DNA from: Cavenderia fasciculata
Taxonomy: Eukaryota; Evosea; Eumycetozoa; Acytosteliales; Cavenderiaceae
Length of the DNA stretch: 64,000 bases
Direction of reading: 5' to 3'
Assembly (NCBI RefSeq): GCF_000203815.1
Contig: NW_004457708.1
Location: 1,263,168 to 1,327,167, forward strand
Within the stretch, counting starts at the first letter, position 1. Each line of letters begins with the position of its first letter. Under the pieces are notes generated by a model. That model made no database searches, was not told the DNA's origin, and was given only the letters and a program-made list of their open reading frames with translations. Below are positions 3,084 to 34,369 of this stretch, piece by piece. Position numbers and translations under genes: made by a program.

Positions 3084-4083
3084 TTATTGTTTTTTCTTTG
3101 AGAGATATTCATCAAAAGTAGTAATATGAGTTAGGTTTGGAGCAATGGATAAGTCTAATCCAGGAAAAGTACCAAATTCTTCATAGAATTGAAACATGTT
3201 ACCCATTTCTTTGGCATTTGGGAATGGAAAAGTACCAAATACTTGTGGTGGAATATAGTTGTATTGAATATCGAATCCATAAAATTTGGATAATGATTGG
3301 ATGATATCATTCATTGAAACAGTGTGACAGAATGGAATCGATGCATTGGCATACTTTGTCTTGTTCTCCAAGATGGCAGAGACAATAGCACCAACATCAG
3401 TGACATCGGCCATTGCAATTGGAATCTTTGGATTGAATGGAATAGTGATAGAATAAGATTGACCATCTTCACTCTTTTTTGGTGCAAAAAAGGTTTCAAA
3501 ATTTTGATAGTAGAATGGAATATAGACAAAACTGACAGTCAATGATGTTGGGTTTTTGGAAGCTTGAAATTCAGCATAAACCTTGATTTCATCTTTTTGA
3601 TCAAAATGAGTAACTGGCAATGTCCCATTACTAATCTTTTCACAATTAACAAGACTACTAAAAATAAAATGTTCAACTTTCGCTAATACAACTGCATCTA
3701 CAATTCTAAAAGAGAAAAAAAACAAAAAAGAATAGGAATATTAATAAAATTTGATTCCAACTTTTTAAATAAATAAATATTATTATTTACTTTTTTCCAA
3801 CTTGACCTTCAGCTTCACCATAGGATTGAGCAGCAGTTACCAAGAAAACAGATTGACTTCCTTGTAATGCTTTGGCAAGTTCTTCGACAGTGGCAGTGGT
3901 TTGATCCAATTTGACCAATTCAACACCTTTCTTTTGCAAAGTAAGAGAGGCATCGGATTCAGGGTTACGAGTAATAGCTCTTACCTTGTACTTTGGATTG
4001 TTGAGTAATGATTGAGTGACTGATCCACCTTGGAGTCCAGTAGCTCCGAAAACAGTTACAATTTGAGTTTGAATAGTTGACAT
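3084..4083 (-). CDS. NmrA-like NAD(P)-binding protein (HSCARG/NMRAL1 type)
   Basis: Two exons, 4083-3791 and 3705-3084, joined in phase 2, give 304 aa. This matches the roughly 300-aa length of NMRAL1/HSCARG redox sensors. The N-terminus has a Rossmann dinucleotide motif, VFGATGLQGGSV (residues about 11-22), then RAITRNP, where NADP-specific members place the Arg that contacts the 2'-phosphate. VEHFIFSSL and a KAEVE-like helix follow, as in atypical short-chain dehydrogenases. The Tyr-Lys catalytic pair of classical SDRs is not evident. A regulatory, ligand-sensing role is therefore more likely than catalysis, as known for NmrA proteins. The intron starts GTAAAT and ends TTTTAG. The gene is tail-to-tail with the exoribonuclease gene. 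Confidence 0.88.
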
Positions 4084-26214: not shown

Positions 26215-28614
26215 ATGAACAACTATTTATATTTATTTATACTTGCAGTTGTTCTTGTTGTTGTGATTACTAGTACCACGCATGTTGTTGTTGTTGAATC
26301 AGCACCAGTAACATGTCAAAGAGATTCATTACTCACAGGACAACAGAATCAAGATGTAGATTGGTGGTTAATCATCAAGTTGTCAATGGGTGATTTATAC
26401 CTCTACTATGATTCTGATATGAAAGAAGAACAATTTTTGGTATGTATAAAACATGTAATAATAATGTATAATAAATAATAATTGTATAATAATAATAATC
26501 TAAAATATATTTTTTTAAATTTTTTGAAGCAAGGTAAATTCCTAAGATCAAGGTATAGTGCATTTGGACAAGCATTAAAAACCATTGAAGATGATGCAAA
26601 TGATTATATTGGTTTTAATGATGATTTTGGACACAGGGATGCCGAGAAAACAAATTCATTTGGTTATTATAATCATGAAAAGGGTATTATTGCTTGGGAT
26701 GATAATCAAGGTATTTACATTCAACACTCGATTCCAAAGTTTCCAAATGGTGGTGGCTACTTTAAACAAAACAAGGTTGACAGATTTTTCACGATCGATC
26801 CAAAACCAGACTATCCAGATGATCAAGACAACTTGGAGTTTCTAAGGTTCGGTCTACTTGGATGGCCATGGGCCCAAGATGGAGGTGGGTATTATTCAAT
26901 GCTTCCATCTAATATAATGGGTGATCGTACGTGTTCCCAAACCGGGAAGGGTATGTACCCAAAAAACCTTGCTGGGATTGGTCAAATGTTAAAGAATTTT
27001 AATTTACCTGGCAATGCACCACACCCTCAACCACAAGATACTGCCAATATATTAAAATCAGCTACCTATGCTCAACATATATTATGTATGTCTTTGGATG
27101 CTCAAAATTGTATGTATAATATAATTATTCAAAATGAAATCAATCAAATCAAATCAACACAATTCGATATACATATATGTTTACTTTATTTATTTTTATT
27201 TATTTTTAAAAGTTCACAAAATAATGGATTTATTTAAAAATATGATGCCAAACAAGTGGAAAACAATGCCTGAAAAAATGTTGTTTGTAACAAAGACAGG
27301 TATACAAGAAGAGTTTGTATATAAACCTGAAGAGTATCTTACAAGAGACGGTGTATATACTTGGTCGATGGATCATAGAGGTGATGCTACAAAGAAGATT
27401 TATCTTATGGGCAAATACTTTGGACCCGATAAGAATCTTTGGAATGACGGTTTGTTTTGGGCCGACAAGTCTTGTAATCCACAAAGCAAAGATCAAGCAA
27501 CAAGGGAAGCCAATCAACCATGTATTCCAACTTGGGTAGAAGGTGGTCTTTCTCCATTAACATTATCCACACACTACTACTTGGGAGCCAAATATGATCC
27601 GGAAAAATTCAAATTCCCAAAATTCACAACTACATTTAAACATGGAACCAAGTCACAATTATTCGCTTGGGGTGCTGGTTATGGAGAAGGAGCAGATCAT
27701 AGCAAGATTGCATTTATTGAAGATCCAAATCATCCAAATTACGATTTATGGAATGTTTGTTTTAGTGGTTCAAATTTAAAACAAACAAAGGGTTCAGTAT
27801 TGGTATGTTGGTAATAATAATATTTATTTATTTATTTATTTATTTATTTATTAATGTTATTTTGTTTTGTCTTTATTATTAGGTTTGTTTTAAAAAAGAT
27901 TCATTGGTGAAAGCATTTATTAATCTTCAAGAGGGGGCACAAGAATCAATTAAAAGTTGGAGTGAAGAGACAAAGGGGGCAGATGGAAAACCATGGACGA
28001 TCTATCAATCATGGGATCCAGAGGGGGACTTTGCCAAATATTATAGGTATCATAGTCCCCAATTGGCATGTAATGCTGTCAGAGGTGTCACGAATCCTCA
28101 TTTATTGACACCAGAAACATTTTCAGAAGAAAAGTATGATAAGATACTACATTACACAACTATTTTCGAACACTATCTTTGGACAAGACAACCCAACCCT
28201 TCAAAAAACCCTATTACAACGTTGGAGAAATTCTATGCTGTTCATAATTTGGAAAGACCTCAACCGGCATTCACTGCTATGATGGGCAGATCCCCTCCTA
28301 CAAGGAATCCAAATAAAGAATCTCCACTAAAGAAACAGAGAACAGGTCTCTCTCCAACAGAAGAGAAGAAAGAAGAGAAGAAAGAAGAGAAGAAAGAAGA
28401 GAAGAAAGTTGAACCAAAGGTAGACTCACTAAGACAACGCTATATGAATCTTCCTAGAAACTTCAGACAAAACAAGCAACTCGAATTAAAAGCAAATGAA
28501 GCCAATACAAAACGTTTTGTTTGTGCTGGTGGACAAGTCATTAATATAGTTGGTCAAGCTACTCATCAAGAAACTGTTGATAGATGTAATAGTCAAAATA
28601 ACGGCGGTCAATAA
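26215..28614 (+). CDS. Secreted DNase II-like protein, copy A
   Basis: Four exons, 26215-26439, 26530-27109, 27213-27802 and 27883-28614, give 708 aa. A signal peptide (LYLFILAVVLVVVITSTTH) precedes CQRDSLLTGQQ and DVDWWLIIKLSMGDLYLYYD, the DNase II start. Both active-site HxK motifs of the pseudodimeric phospholipase-D-like fold are present: NHEKGIIAWD near residue 118 and ADHSKIAF near residue 368. QHSIPKFPN and YAQHILCMSL are further family blocks. Such enzymes cut DNA at acid pH without metal, in lysosomes or secreted fluid; for a bacterivore, digesting prey DNA is a reasonable role (inference). Unlike animal DNase II (about 360 aa), a C-terminal extension of about 290 residues follows. 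It contains a KKQR patch, a repeated EEKK tract (about 28361-28410) and a tail with VDRCN. The first of three tandem copies. Confidence 0.88.
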
Positions 28615-28833
28615 ATAAACCAAATAAATAGGAATAAAGGTCTACTTGATTGAAATTGGGATCAGCCACCCTGTTTCACAAAAAAAAAAAAAACCCAAAC
28701 CGCCAATTCGTGTTCAACCACGTTGGCTCTCTACCACATCACATATTAACTAGCGCACTACTATGATTATGATATTATTTAAAAGAAGATAGAGATAGAC
28801 AAGATAGAGATAAATAGATAAATAGATAGATAG
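28615..28833. promoter_or_regulatory. Upstream region of DNase II-like copy B
   Basis: 219-base spacer between copies A and B. It has an A-run (about 28679-28693), the element CGTGTTCAACCACGTTGG at about 28708-28725, which resembles the palindromic element before copy A, and a GATA-type repeat (about 28789-28832) like the one before copy A. Confidence 0.45.
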
Positions 28834-31486
28834 ATGAATAACTATTTATATTTATTTATACTTGCAGTTGTTGTTGTGATTACGAGTACTCATGTTGTTC
28901 AATCAGCACCAGTAACATGTCAAAGAGATTCATTACTCACAGGACAACAGAAATCAAGATGTAGATTGGTGGTTAATCATCAAAGTTGTCAATGGGTGAT
29001 TTATACCTCTACTATGATTCTGATATGCATGAACATCAATTTATGGTATGTATATTATTTAAATAATAGGTTTGTTTTAATATATTTACTTTTGTATTTA
29101 CTTTTTATTTTTCTTGAAGCAAGGTAAATTCCTAAGATCAAGGTATAGTGCATTTGGACAAGTTTTAAAAACCATTGAAGATGATGCAAATGATTATATT
29201 GGTTTTAATAATGATTTTGGTCATGAGAATCTAGCAAGGAATAATCCATTTGGTGAATATAATCATGAAAAGGGTATGATTGCTTGGGACAATACACAAG
29301 GTATTTATATTCAACATTCTATACCAAAGTTTCCAAATGGTGGTGGTTATTTGAAAAAGGTTGATAAGTTTTATACAATCGATCCAAAACCAGACTATCC
29401 AGACGATGAAGATAGTTTGGAGTTTCTAAGATTCAGTTTACTTGGATGGCCATGGGCCAATGATGGAGGTGGTTATTATACAACGTTTGCTTCTAATATA
29501 ATGGGTGATCGAACATGTGCCAATACCAATTCAGGTACCTATCCATATAAACTACCCAAGATTGGTCAAATGTTAAAGAATTTTGGGTTCCCCGATGGAG
29601 TACCTCATCCTCAACCACAAGATACTGCCAATGTATTAAAATCAGCTTCATATGCACAACATATATTTTGTATGTCTTTGGATGGTACTAATTGTATGTA
29701 TAATAATATATTCAAATCAAAGTTAATTAAAAGTACACAAAAGAAAGTATATATTAATTTAATTTAATTTAATTTATTTTGTTTGGTTTAAATAGTCCAA
29801 GATATAATGGCATTATTTCAAGATTTAATGCCAAACAAGTATAGTCCAATGCCAGATAATATGTTGTTTGTAACAAAGACTGGTGACTTGCAAACTAACT
29901 TTGCATATAAACAATTGAAAGATGTAGTAAGAGATGGTGTTTATAAAAAGGTGATGCATCAAAGAGGTGATGATACAAAAAAGATTTATGCTTTGGCAAA
30001 ATACCAAGGAAACAAGAATCTTTGGACTGATAGTCTGTTTATGGCAGATGAATCTTGTGATCCAGGTAATGATGATTTAGAAGTTAATCAACCATGTATT
30101 CCAACTTGGGTAGAAGATATTCCTCCATTAACATTGACTGCATATAACCTTGGAAAGGCATTTGATCCAGCTAGATTTAAATTCCCAAAATTTACAACTA
30201 CATTTGTTCAAGGTCAATCATCACAATTATTCGCTTGGGGTGCTGGATATGGAGAAGAAGCAGATCACAGTAAGATTGGTATTTTGGAAGATGAGAATCA
30301 TCCCAATTATAAAATATGGAATGTTTGTTTTAGTGGTTCAAATTTACAACAAAAAAAGGGTTCAGTTTTGGTATGTTGTATAAAATACATAGTTATATAT
30401 ATATATAGTTAACATACATATATAATTATTTGTATATGTTAATATTAATGTTTGTTATTTTGTTTTGATTTATTTTTAATTTAGATTTGTTTAAAAAAAG
30501 ATTCATTGGTGGAAGCATTTAAAAATCTTCAACTCAATGCACCAGATACTCAGGTGTCACCTGGATCAGGAACAGTATGGGCAGAGAATATAAGAATGCA
30601 GTCTAGGAGTTGGACAGCCAAACGATCATGGGATCCAGAGGGAGACTTTGCAAAATATTTTAAGAGTCATAGTGCTCAGTTGGTATGTGATGCCATTCGA
30701 AATACCAAAGTGGCGAATCCAGAATCATTCAAACCTGAAATGTTTGCAGGTCAACCAAAGGATGTACAAATACTATATACAACAATTATAGAACACTATC
30801 TATTTACTAGACAGAGTAACCCAACAAATGCACCCATTACAACATTGGAGGATTTCTATACCGGGTTGAATTTAATAAGACCGGTTACAAATGTCCCACC
30901 TCCCATGCAAGCACGTAAACAACCACCACTCCCAACTACACATCGTCCATCAGCTGTTACCACTACACAACCAGCAGTTAAAAAAAGATTGGTGTCAGAT
31001 ATGGAGGCACAAACAACATCAGCTGTCAATAATCGAAAAGAAGAAGAAGGACCACCAAAAAAGAGAATGAGATCGGAAGAGAAAAGAGCAGCTCTACAAG
31101 GTATTATTGATGATATTGATATATTCACATACGAAATCAAATCAATACAGAAATTGGTTAATTTTGGTTTAGAACAAGCTGATGATGAAGGTGTTGATGA
31201 TTGGATCAAACCATACATTTTAGAAAAGAATCAAGAAATTAAGAAATTGTGTGATACATTTTATCAAGCCAAGAAATTACAAATGGAAGAGTTGGAAGCA
31301 AACACAATCCTCTATGATTGTGATGTTGAATTACCAATTGAAACTGATACAACAAATGCTGATGGACAAGACCCACCCAAACCACAAGATACACCAATGG
31401 AAGAGGAAAAGAGTGATCCTATCATTCAACTAGTTGGTCAAACTTCAAAAAAGGATATTAACGATAGATGTAATCAATCTAAATAA
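28834..31486 (+). CDS. DNase II-like protein, copy B (first exon frameshifted)
   Basis: Exons by comparison with copies A and C: 28834-29045, 29120-29693, 29796-30370 and 30485-31486. Exons 2-4 are open and in phase. Both HxK motifs (NHEKGMIAWD, ADHSKIGILE) and the C-terminal extension with PPKKRMRSEEKR and the NDRCNQSK tail are intact. Exon 1 carries two single-base A insertions relative to A and C, in AAA runs at 28951-28953 and 28982-28984. As a result the frame from the signal peptide leaves the DNase frame before DVDWW and does not return. An in-frame ATG at 28992 would give 734 aa without a signal peptide. It may therefore be a recent pseudogene, a non-secreted form, or a sequencing error. 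The near identity of exon 3 with copy C points to recent duplication or conversion. Confidence 0.75.
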
Positions 31487-31741
31487 TAAATATCATTTTA
31501 TTTAATAAATAATAATATTTATTTATTTTCCATCCTTTTGGATCTTTGCAAAAAAAAAAAAAAAAGAATAATCACGTGCACAGAAAGGCACGTGTTCAGT
31601 GGATGGCATAACGATCAATTATCTAGATGATTTATTTAATTAAATAAAAGCATGTAAAGTTTTGAACACGTTAGCTTGTCATCGTTCATAGTTCTTGTCA
31701 CTATGTTAAAAGAAGATAGAGGTAGAGATAAATAGAGAGAA
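31487..31741. promoter_or_regulatory. Upstream region of DNase II-like copy C
   Basis: Spacer with an A-run (about 31549-31565), a CACGTGC ... GCACGTG inverted pair (31573-31579 and 31588-31594) that continues into CGTGTTCA, and a reverse-orientation copy, TGAACACG, at about 31660-31667. The elements resemble those before copies A and B. Confidence 0.45.
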
Positions 31742-34369
31742 ATGGGTAAATCTTTATATTTATTTATACTTGCAGTTGTTCTTGTTGTTGTGATTACTAG
31801 TAACACGCATGTTGTTGTTGTTGAATCAGCACCAATATCATGTCAAAGAGACTCATTACTCACAGGACAACAGAATCAAGATGTAGATTGGTGGTTAATC
31901 ATCAAGTTGTCAATGGGTGATTTATACCTCTACTATGATTCTGATATGCATGAACATCAATTTATGGTATGTATCACACTCTCTTGATAGATATGTACAT
32001 ATTTACTTACAATTATTCTTTATTTTTATTTAATTTGAAGCAAGGTAAATTCCTAAGATCAAGGTATAGTGCATTTGGACAAGCATTAAAAACCATTGAA
32101 GATGATGCAATTGATTATATTGGTTTTAATAATGATTTTGGACATCAGAGTCAAGTAAAGAATAATCCATTTGGTGAATATAATCATGAAAAGGGTATGA
32201 TTGCTTGGGACCTTGAGCAAGCTATTTACATTCAACATTCTATTCCAAAGTTTCCAAATGGTGGTGGCTACTTTAAACAAAACAAGGTTGATAAATTTTT
32301 CACTATCGATACTCAACCAGACTATCCAGACGATGAAGATAGTTTGGAGTTTCTAAGATTCAGTTTACTTGGATGGCCACGGGCCATTGATGGAGGTGGT
32401 TATTATACAATGTTTCCATCAAATATAATGGGTAGTCGAACATGTACCAGTACCGGCCCGGGTACAATCTATCAATCAAAACTACCCAAGATTGGTAAAA
32501 TGTTACAGAATTTTGGGTTCCCCGATAGTGTATCAAAACCTCAACCACAAGATACTGCCAATGTATTAAAATCAGCTTCATATGCACAACATATATTTTG
32601 TATGTCTTTGGATGCTCAAAATTGTATGTATAATAATAATAATATTCAAAATCAAATCAAAAAATATACGAATATTTATTTATTTATTTATTTGTGGTAA
32701 TTTTGGGTTGGTTTATATAGTCCAAGATATAATATCATTATTTCAAGATATAATGCCAAACAAATGGAATGATATGCCAAAGGATATGATGTTTGTAACA
32801 AAGACTGGTATTCCACAACCTTATTTTTCATATAAATTACTGAAAGATGTACAAAGAGATGGTGTTTATAAAAAGGTGATGAATCATAGAGGTGATGCTA
32901 CAAAGAAGATTTATGCTTTGGCCAAATACCAAGGTACAAAAAAGAATCTTTGGGCTGATAGTCTGTTTATGGCTGATGAATCTTGTGATCCAGGTAATGA
33001 TGATTTAGAGGTCAATCAACCATGTATTCCAACTTGGGTAGAAGATATTCCTCCATTAACATTGACTGCATACAACCTTGGAAAGGCATTTGATCCAGCT
33101 AGATTCAAATTCCCAAAATTTACAACTACATTTGTTCAAGGTCAATCATCACAATTATTCGCTTGGGGTGCTGGATATGGAGAAGAAGCAGATCACAGCA
33201 AGATTGGTATTTTGGAAGATGAGAATCATCCAAATTATAAAATATGGAATGTTTGTTTTAGTGGTTCAAATTTACAACAAACAAAGGGTTCAGTATTGGT
33301 ATGTATAAATATAGTTATATATATATATATTTACATATTAATATTAATGTTATTTGTTTTTTAGATATGTTTAAAAAAAGATTCATTAGTTGAAGCATTT
33401 AAAAATCTTCAGGTCAATGCACCAGATGCTCAAAGGTCACTTGTAACAGGTGATATTTGGGGAGAGAGGATAACTGGGCAAGTTCAAAATTGGTTAGCTA
33501 AAAGATCATGGGATCCAGAGGGAGACTTTGCAAAATATTTCCAGGATCATAGTGCAGAGTTGGTATGTAAAGCCATTAAAAATCCACTGGTGAAAGATCC
33601 AGATTCATTCGAACCTAAAATGTTTGCAAGTCAACCATTGAACGTACAAATACTATATACAACTATTATCGAACACTATCTATTTACAAGACTAAAGAAT
33701 CCAACAAATACACCACTCACAACATTGGAGGCATTCTTGACTGAATTGGGTCTGGTCAAACCAGAAATGCCTGTTCCAGTTCCTCTACAAACACGTAAAC
33801 AACCACCAATACCAATTATACATCGTGCAAATGCAAATGCAGCTATTGTAAACAACAACAAACCAGCAGCAGTTAAAAGATTGGCATCACAAACAACAAA
33901 TAATCGAAAAGTAGAAGAAGAAGGACCACCAAAAAAGAGATTCAAAACTGAAGAGAAAAGAGCAGTTATAGAAGGTATCATGGATGAGATGGACGATTTC
34001 ACAGAGGGGATCAAATCAATACAGAAAATGGTTGATTTTGGTTTAGAACAAGCTGATGATGATGATCCTGATTTAATCTGGATCAAACCATACTTTGTAG
34101 AAAAGAATTTACAAATCCAAAAATTGTGTGATGCATTTTATCAAGCCAAGAAATTACAATTGGAAGAATTGGCATCAAAAACTAATCTTTATGATTGTGA
34201 TGATGATGTTGAAATACCAATTGAAACTGATACAACTCCCGATGATGGACAAGACCCACCCAAACCACAAGACACAATAATGGTAGAGGAAAAGAGTGAT
34301 CCTATCATTCAACTAGTTGGTCCAACTTCAAAAAAGGATATTAACGATAGATGTAATCAATCTAAATAA
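31742..34369 (+). CDS. Secreted DNase II-like protein, copy C
   Basis: Four exons, 31742-31966, 32041-32623, 32721-33298 and 33365-34369, give 796 aa. Intron positions and phases match copies A and B. The signal peptide and DVDWWLIIKLSMGDLYLYYD block are almost identical to copy A. Both HxK motifs are present (NHEKGMIAWD, ADHSKIGILE), as is QHIFCMSLD. The C-terminal extension of about 330 residues has a Pro-rich part, a basic PPKKRFKTEEKR patch, a predicted helical segment (KSIQKMVDFGLEQADDDD, then KKLQLEELASK), an acidic tract and the tail LVGPTSKKDINDRCNQSK. The basic patch looks like a nuclear localisation signal, which is odd on a protein with a signal peptide; it may instead bind DNA. 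Catalytic competence is plausible. The function of the extension is unknown. Confidence 0.88.

Follow-up and report, generated by a model that had tools for sequence, protein, structure and literature searches.

What does a DNase II gain from a long C-terminal tail that matches no known domain? The question is raised by three neighbouring genes of Cavenderia fasciculata (genes 1 to 3, here called the trio), which lie at positions 26215 to 34369 of the window; the window is the whole stretch of 64,000 nucleotides that was analysed (contig NW_004457708.1, positions 1,263,168 to 1,327,167 of the forward strand). The enzyme itself is of a familiar kind and the tail is the unusual part. The explanation that we favour, tentatively, is that the trio represents lineage-specific secreted or lysosomal acid DNases, with a tail that would bring the enzyme to chromatin once its compartment opens. 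The evidence includes a basic cluster resembling a nuclear localisation signal (NLS), which is found in the tails of all three genes and of four distant paralogs. The gene models are as follows.

26215..28614, + strand: gene 1, 708 amino acids; exons 26215-26439, 26530-27109, 27213-27802 and 27883-28614
28834..31486, + strand: gene 2; exons 28834-29045 (frame disrupted), 29120-29693, 29796-30370 and 30485-31486
31742..34369, + strand: gene 3, 796 amino acids; exons 31742-31966, 32041-32623, 32721-33298 and 33365-34369
26215..26310, + strand: signal-peptide-like segment of gene 1, end approximate; about 31742-31837 in gene 3; both based on sequence reading and hydropathy

The three genes are in tandem on the + strand, and each consists of four exons with GT-AG junctions. 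The first-pass annotation had described three adjacent same-strand genes with identical intron positions, and the spliced models agree with this: the intron positions are homologous between the genes, with phases 0/1/0. The spliced frame of gene 1 is open end to end, that of gene 3 is open throughout, and exons 2-4 of gene 2 are open across 716 codons (716 amino acids). The exons were checked with a custom codon-usage gene finder, which returned identical exons for gene 1 and agreed elsewhere except at exon 4 of gene 3 and exon 1 of gene 2. The start of the former (33365) was set by homology, the gene finder having chosen an internal acceptor at 33413; for gene 2 the gene finder starts at 28992, which gives a model without the signal peptide. 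A signal peptide had been proposed for each gene. The N-termini of genes 1 and 3 are signal-peptide-like and hydrophobic (13-residue hydropathy maximum of 3.48 in each); the proposal fails for gene 2 as one working frame, since its exon 1 is out of frame.

Concerning the core, the proposed DNase II identity is confirmed by profile search. Pfam DNase_II (PF03265, curated cut-off 23 bits) matches gene 1 with E=1.3e-25 and 90.7 bits, exon 2 of gene 2 with E=5.4e-11 and 42.7 bits and, in the genome search, exon 2 of gene 3 with 34.6 bits, all above the cut-off; exon 3 of gene 2, scanned alone, has no Pfam match. The Pfam scan covered gene 1 at full length and, for gene 3, exon 4. Both HxK catalytic motifs are present in each gene, as the first-pass annotation had stated.

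26671..26685, + strand: first HxK motif (NHEKG) of gene 1; 29261-29275 in gene 2 and 32182-32196 in gene 3
27695..27706, + strand: second HxK motif (DHSK) of gene 1; 30263-30274 in gene 2 and 33191-33202 in gene 3

NHEK, DHSK and the histidine of HSIPKFP are thus found in 3/3 genes. The trio shares with the DNase II family (PF03265; human DNase II-alpha; 5i3e, a solved structure named putative deoxyribonuclease-2) the HxK/HxK core, the second histidine in HSIPKFP, the DHSK motif and the terminal Cys element; in genes 1 and 3 the N-terminus also resembles a signal peptide. It differs in the 230-321 residues added after the core, and in a core that is longer and diverged. A point of comparison within the genome is the canonical single-domain paralog C7:1359541 (locus L001), whose one open frame has 403 residues and no tail, and which matches DNase_II over nearly the whole profile (E=4.8e-89) and has 5i3e as its relative in PDB (E=6e-24). 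The core of gene 1 has 447 residues, compared with 366 in this paralog, and a sequence search of gene 1 against PDB returned no DNase II structure (best E 0.5, at chance level). From motifs and family we infer that the trio core would be an acid endonuclease that hydrolyses DNA; metal-independent acid DNase activity is a feature of the DNase II family. The core closes with a terminal Cys element, which aligns to RGGGTAC of the canonical paralog and forms the beginning of exon 4. Because exon 4 opens with this core element, it would belong to the same coding unit, and the possibility that it is a separate unit or transcript, on which the first-pass reading would have fallen, appears to be ruled out.

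Animal DNase II proteins are about 360 residues long and end shortly after the terminal Cys element. Such an ending is a typical rather than a defining feature of DNase II, and the tail marks the trio as a variant. The relevant features of exon 4 are listed below.

27883..28614, + strand: exon 4 of gene 1, terminal core Cys element followed by the tail; 30485-31486 in gene 2 and 33365-34369 in gene 3
28009..28041, + strand: SWDPEGDFAKY tail block of gene 1, 11/11 residues invariant in the trio; 30626-30658 in gene 2 and 33506-33538 in gene 3
28324..28341, + strand: NLS-like cluster of gene 1 (PLKKQR); 31052-31072 in gene 2 (PPKKRMR) and 33926-33946 in gene 3 (PPKKRFK); based on pat7

With the core taken to end at its NLQ, the extension is 230, 320 and 321 residues long in genes 1, 2 and 3, respectively; the earlier estimate was about 250-330 residues. 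The reading of it as lacking a known domain is supported, and a common DNase II-associated domain was not found: exon 4 of the trio contains no Pfam domain at E up to 1 and no NCBIfam match above the cut-off. A sigma70-ECF match of NCBIfam in exon 4 of gene 2 was rejected as chance (E 0.076; 12.6 bits, where the cut-off is 42.9). A fusion to IPT/TIG repeats in the window was also rejected: neither the complete gene 1 nor exon 4 of gene 1, 2 or 3 contains TIG. In a single-sequence genome search (E up to 1, best candidates scored), for which a 157-residue piece of exon 4 of gene 1 and the entire exon 4 of gene 2 served as queries, the tail was found solely in the trio. Looking at its layout, a conserved first part with SWDPEGDFAKY is followed by the basic cluster, a helical segment (genes 2 and 3) and a conserved end with DRCN; EHYL and DRCN are further invariant blocks.

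The tail evolves fast and is poorly predicted as a fold. Protein identity of gene 1 to genes 3 and 2 is 0.37-0.42 in the extension and 0.72-0.74 in the core. The ratio of nonsynonymous to synonymous divergence (dN/dS) is 0.52-0.57 in the extension, which is thus constrained, compared with 0.40-0.54 in the core. The predicted structure of gene 3 exon 4 has a mean predicted local distance difference test score (pLDDT) of 42.4 from the single sequence and 46.9 when aligned with genes 2 and 1. Helices are predicted at residues 195-272 of this exon, with block pLDDT values of 64-78 across residues 201-270; gene 1 lacks most of this helical segment.

The genome (31.0 Mb, 21 contigs) was searched with the DNase_II profile, which gave 33 matches, 32 of them above the cut-off; grouped by hand, they correspond to about 26 DNase II-like loci. 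A local family expansion had been suggested for the array, and the tandem array supports it, the trio being part of a wider tail-bearing group. Seven genes bear a tail: the trio and the distant paralogs C16:382855, C1:235369, C18:1684047 and C21:1395781. The N-termini of C16, C1 and C18 are hydrophobic when read by eye. The best exon of C21 scores 22.3 bits, below the Pfam cut-off, and that of C18 scores 22.9 (23 with its neighbours). In a tree of 25 domains, made without the modelled paralog C13:388947, the trio groups with C16:382855 and C1:235369 (support 100/99), while C18:1684047 and C21:1395781 pair at 99/95 on long branches, an unsure pairing, apart from the other five tail genes. Contrary to this tree, all seven tail genes (read by eye) have in common a phase-0 intron that precedes the terminal core Cys by one codon; it is found in 0/15 models of the TIG-type proteins described below, a check that was made on models other than C5, C13:388947, C13:412363 and the canonical gene. 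This common intron supports a single origin of the tail-bearing group.

The PSORT-type pattern pat7 is present in 7/7 tails, compared with 7-10% of background ends of open reading frames (ORFs). The background consists of the last 100-310 residues, 21 to 41 segments per length, of 41 stop-to-stop ORFs, taken from the window and from six control stretches of 10 kb. The canonical paralog, which resembles the trio in its DNase_II domain, differs in having neither tail nor pat7. The NLS-like property is kept while the tail sequence, which cannot be aligned between lineages, turns over. By charged-residue content, four of the seven tails are acidic and three (gene 1, C16 and C21) slightly basic.

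In the explanation favoured here, the HxK/HxK core would cut DNA and the tail would most likely serve localisation or substrate access. A lysosome or vacuole would open, either in autophagic stalk-cell death or in an engulfed or killed cell, and the enzyme could then enter the nucleus by import, or be retained there, so that nuclear DNA is degraded. The stalk-cell death of dictyostelids, with its large vacuoles, is a natural occasion for such an opening, and an NLS in a secreted protein would make sense only after opening of the compartment or uptake. Compartment, nuclear targeting and biological occasion are all inferred. Several points weigh against this explanation. A secreted protein normally does not meet importins, so an NLS would need a breach or uptake in order to act. 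The test of the pattern came only after it had caught the eye, and the small background set consists of stop-to-stop frames rather than gene models. Since the trio is one lineage, no more than five cases are independent. When each tail is shuffled, pat7 arises in 0.05-0.37 of the shuffles; 3/19 other DNase II-like models contain it, and similar clusters occur in the core inserts of C1 and C18. Homology of the C1, C16, C18 and C21 tails to those of the trio is not supported: they align to the trio tails with an hhalign probability of 0.6% at best, and their scores, compared with the first part of the trio tails, were matched by composition shuffles in 374, 1321, 1411 and 1349 of 2000, respectively; a weak resemblance of the C1 tail to the trio tail (hhalign E 0.1) was dropped as a sign of homology. 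The gene models of C21 and C16 are rough. For genes 1 and 3, dN/dS in exon 1 is 1.59, from very few synonymous changes. The three slightly basic tails would also allow a looser role in DNA binding.

Putative roles named in the first-pass annotation were digestion of prey DNA, phosphate scavenging and defence. A plain role in digestion is nearly as likely as the explanation by access to chromatin. The trio would then be ordinary acid DNases for the DNA of bacterial food, as the lysosomal nature of animal DNase II would suggest, and the tail a dispensable, drifting, disordered spacer or propeptide with basic clusters incidental to lysine-rich disorder. The low identity and low pLDDT of the tails, their lack of alignment across lineages and the frequency of pat7 by composition alone (5-37% of shuffles) all fit this, but the occurrence of pat7 in 7/7 tails, above both controls, and the invariant SWDPEGDFAKY, EHYL and DRCN blocks do not. 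We consider it unlikely that the basic cluster and the helices of the tail serve to retain the enzyme on DNA outside the cell or in the phagosome, or on a partner protein, with import irrelevant: the cluster immediately precedes the predicted helices of gene 3, and three tails are slightly net basic, but most of the helical segment is missing from gene 1 and four tails are net acidic. The least probable alternative, to which we give little credence, is that these are secreted nucleases that act on other cells and reach the nuclei of competing amoebae or other eukaryotes, as a working analogue of the plancitoxins of crown-of-thorns starfish. The combination of a signal-peptide-like start with an NLS-like cluster would suit such a role, and plancitoxins are, according to PMC10448888, secreted DNase II proteins with several gene copies, identified in starfish spine preparations. 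Full-length plancitoxins, however, have 356 residues there, including the signal peptide, which leaves no room for a comparable tail; in addition, no entry domain was found in the Pfam and NCBIfam scans, and release onto other cells would have to be assumed. Should the NLS-like clusters prove functional, the action of a lysosomal acid nuclease on chromatin would be explained, and the way in which dying dictyostelid cells dispose of nuclear DNA, or a nuclease attack of one cell on another, could be tested directly. The strongest form of the favoured explanation, in which secreted DNases of social amoebae evolved to reach nuclei and destroy the nuclear DNA there, be it in dying cells, engulfed cells or competitors, with fast-changing tails under selection mainly as a nuclear address, seems improbable to us.

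The state of gene 2 is a separate question, compatible with each reading of the tail. Relative to genes 1 and 3, its exon 1 differs in length by one base at two places, each within a short A run, and the same signal peptide, still encoded, is therefore out of frame with exons 2-4. Gene 2 may be a young pseudogene, which would reduce the array to two genes and a remnant; we hold this with some reserve. The disrupted frame of exon 1 favours it, but the 716 open codons of exons 2-4 and their dN/dS of 0.34-0.60 relative to gene 3 do not, and these exons still appear to be under constraint. An assembly error is possible, as both extra bases lie in short A runs, and another donor, located four bases further downstream, might bring the phase back, although the VDWW segment would be lost even so. 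Frame interruptions are also seen in the paralogs C21 and C16, so that disruption in the tail-bearing group is not confined to gene 2: exon 1 of C21 is broken by a short tandem duplication (L028, about 780-860), and C16 has an in-frame stop (L025, about 3440-3520), both read by eye; the gene finder bridged the stop with a doubtful intron. Divergence within the trio is uneven. Synonymous divergence between genes 1 and 3 climbs from exon to exon (0.04, 0.32, 0.47 and 0.9-1.1 in exons 1 to 4), and this rise suggests that the 5' part of genes 1 and 3 was recently homogenised, as if by gene conversion limited to that part.

The DNase II family of Dictyostelium fasciculatum is already in print: a published phylogeny (PMC4148230) includes a member of it and counts this member with the small number for which no signal peptide is predicted. 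No description of the tails was found in the accessible parts of the open-access literature searched, and a search of open-access literature for plancitoxin linked with nuclear localisation likewise found nothing.

Elsewhere in the genome, large DNase II proteins with IPT/TIG repeats form two clades. They share a related DNase II domain with the trio, which differs from them in having no TIG repeats and in the intron of the tail group. TIG was found in 7/8 of the ORFs scanned; DNase_II and TIG lie in one frame in two of these and are otherwise joined by gene models, many of which end at locus borders and some of which have spurious terminal exons. In one clade (support 99/96), 8/8 tree members lack the histidine of the first motif and 8/8 lack an intact second HxK (C2 retains the second His). 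In the other, the first HxK is present in 8/9 members (one not modelled there) and the second in 9/9. C9 and C17 are sisters, as are C13 and C14, in both clades.

Members of the two clades occur as seven head-to-head pairs (L009-L024), each with one member of either kind (C13:388947 placed by likeness). The layout recalls the TgrB1/TgrC1 recognition pair. A table in PMC4931340 marks tgrB1 '4' and tgrC1 'DD', which we read as narrow conservation. The pairs are C2 1350816-/1356025+, C7 739847-/744227+, C9 295263-/299999+ and C14 763822-/769059+, together with 384472-/388947+, 407174-/412363+ and 431191-/436599+ on C13. The C13 pair is thus present in three copies at a spacing of about 24 kb (about 383-439 kb; L017-L021), apparently a segmental tandem triplication. 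On C17, the pair lies on the same strand, 19 kb apart (734311+ and 753299+); C5 4105298+ represents the HxK-less kind only, with no TIG in the ORF scanned, and C9 316006+ is an additional HxK-bearing copy.

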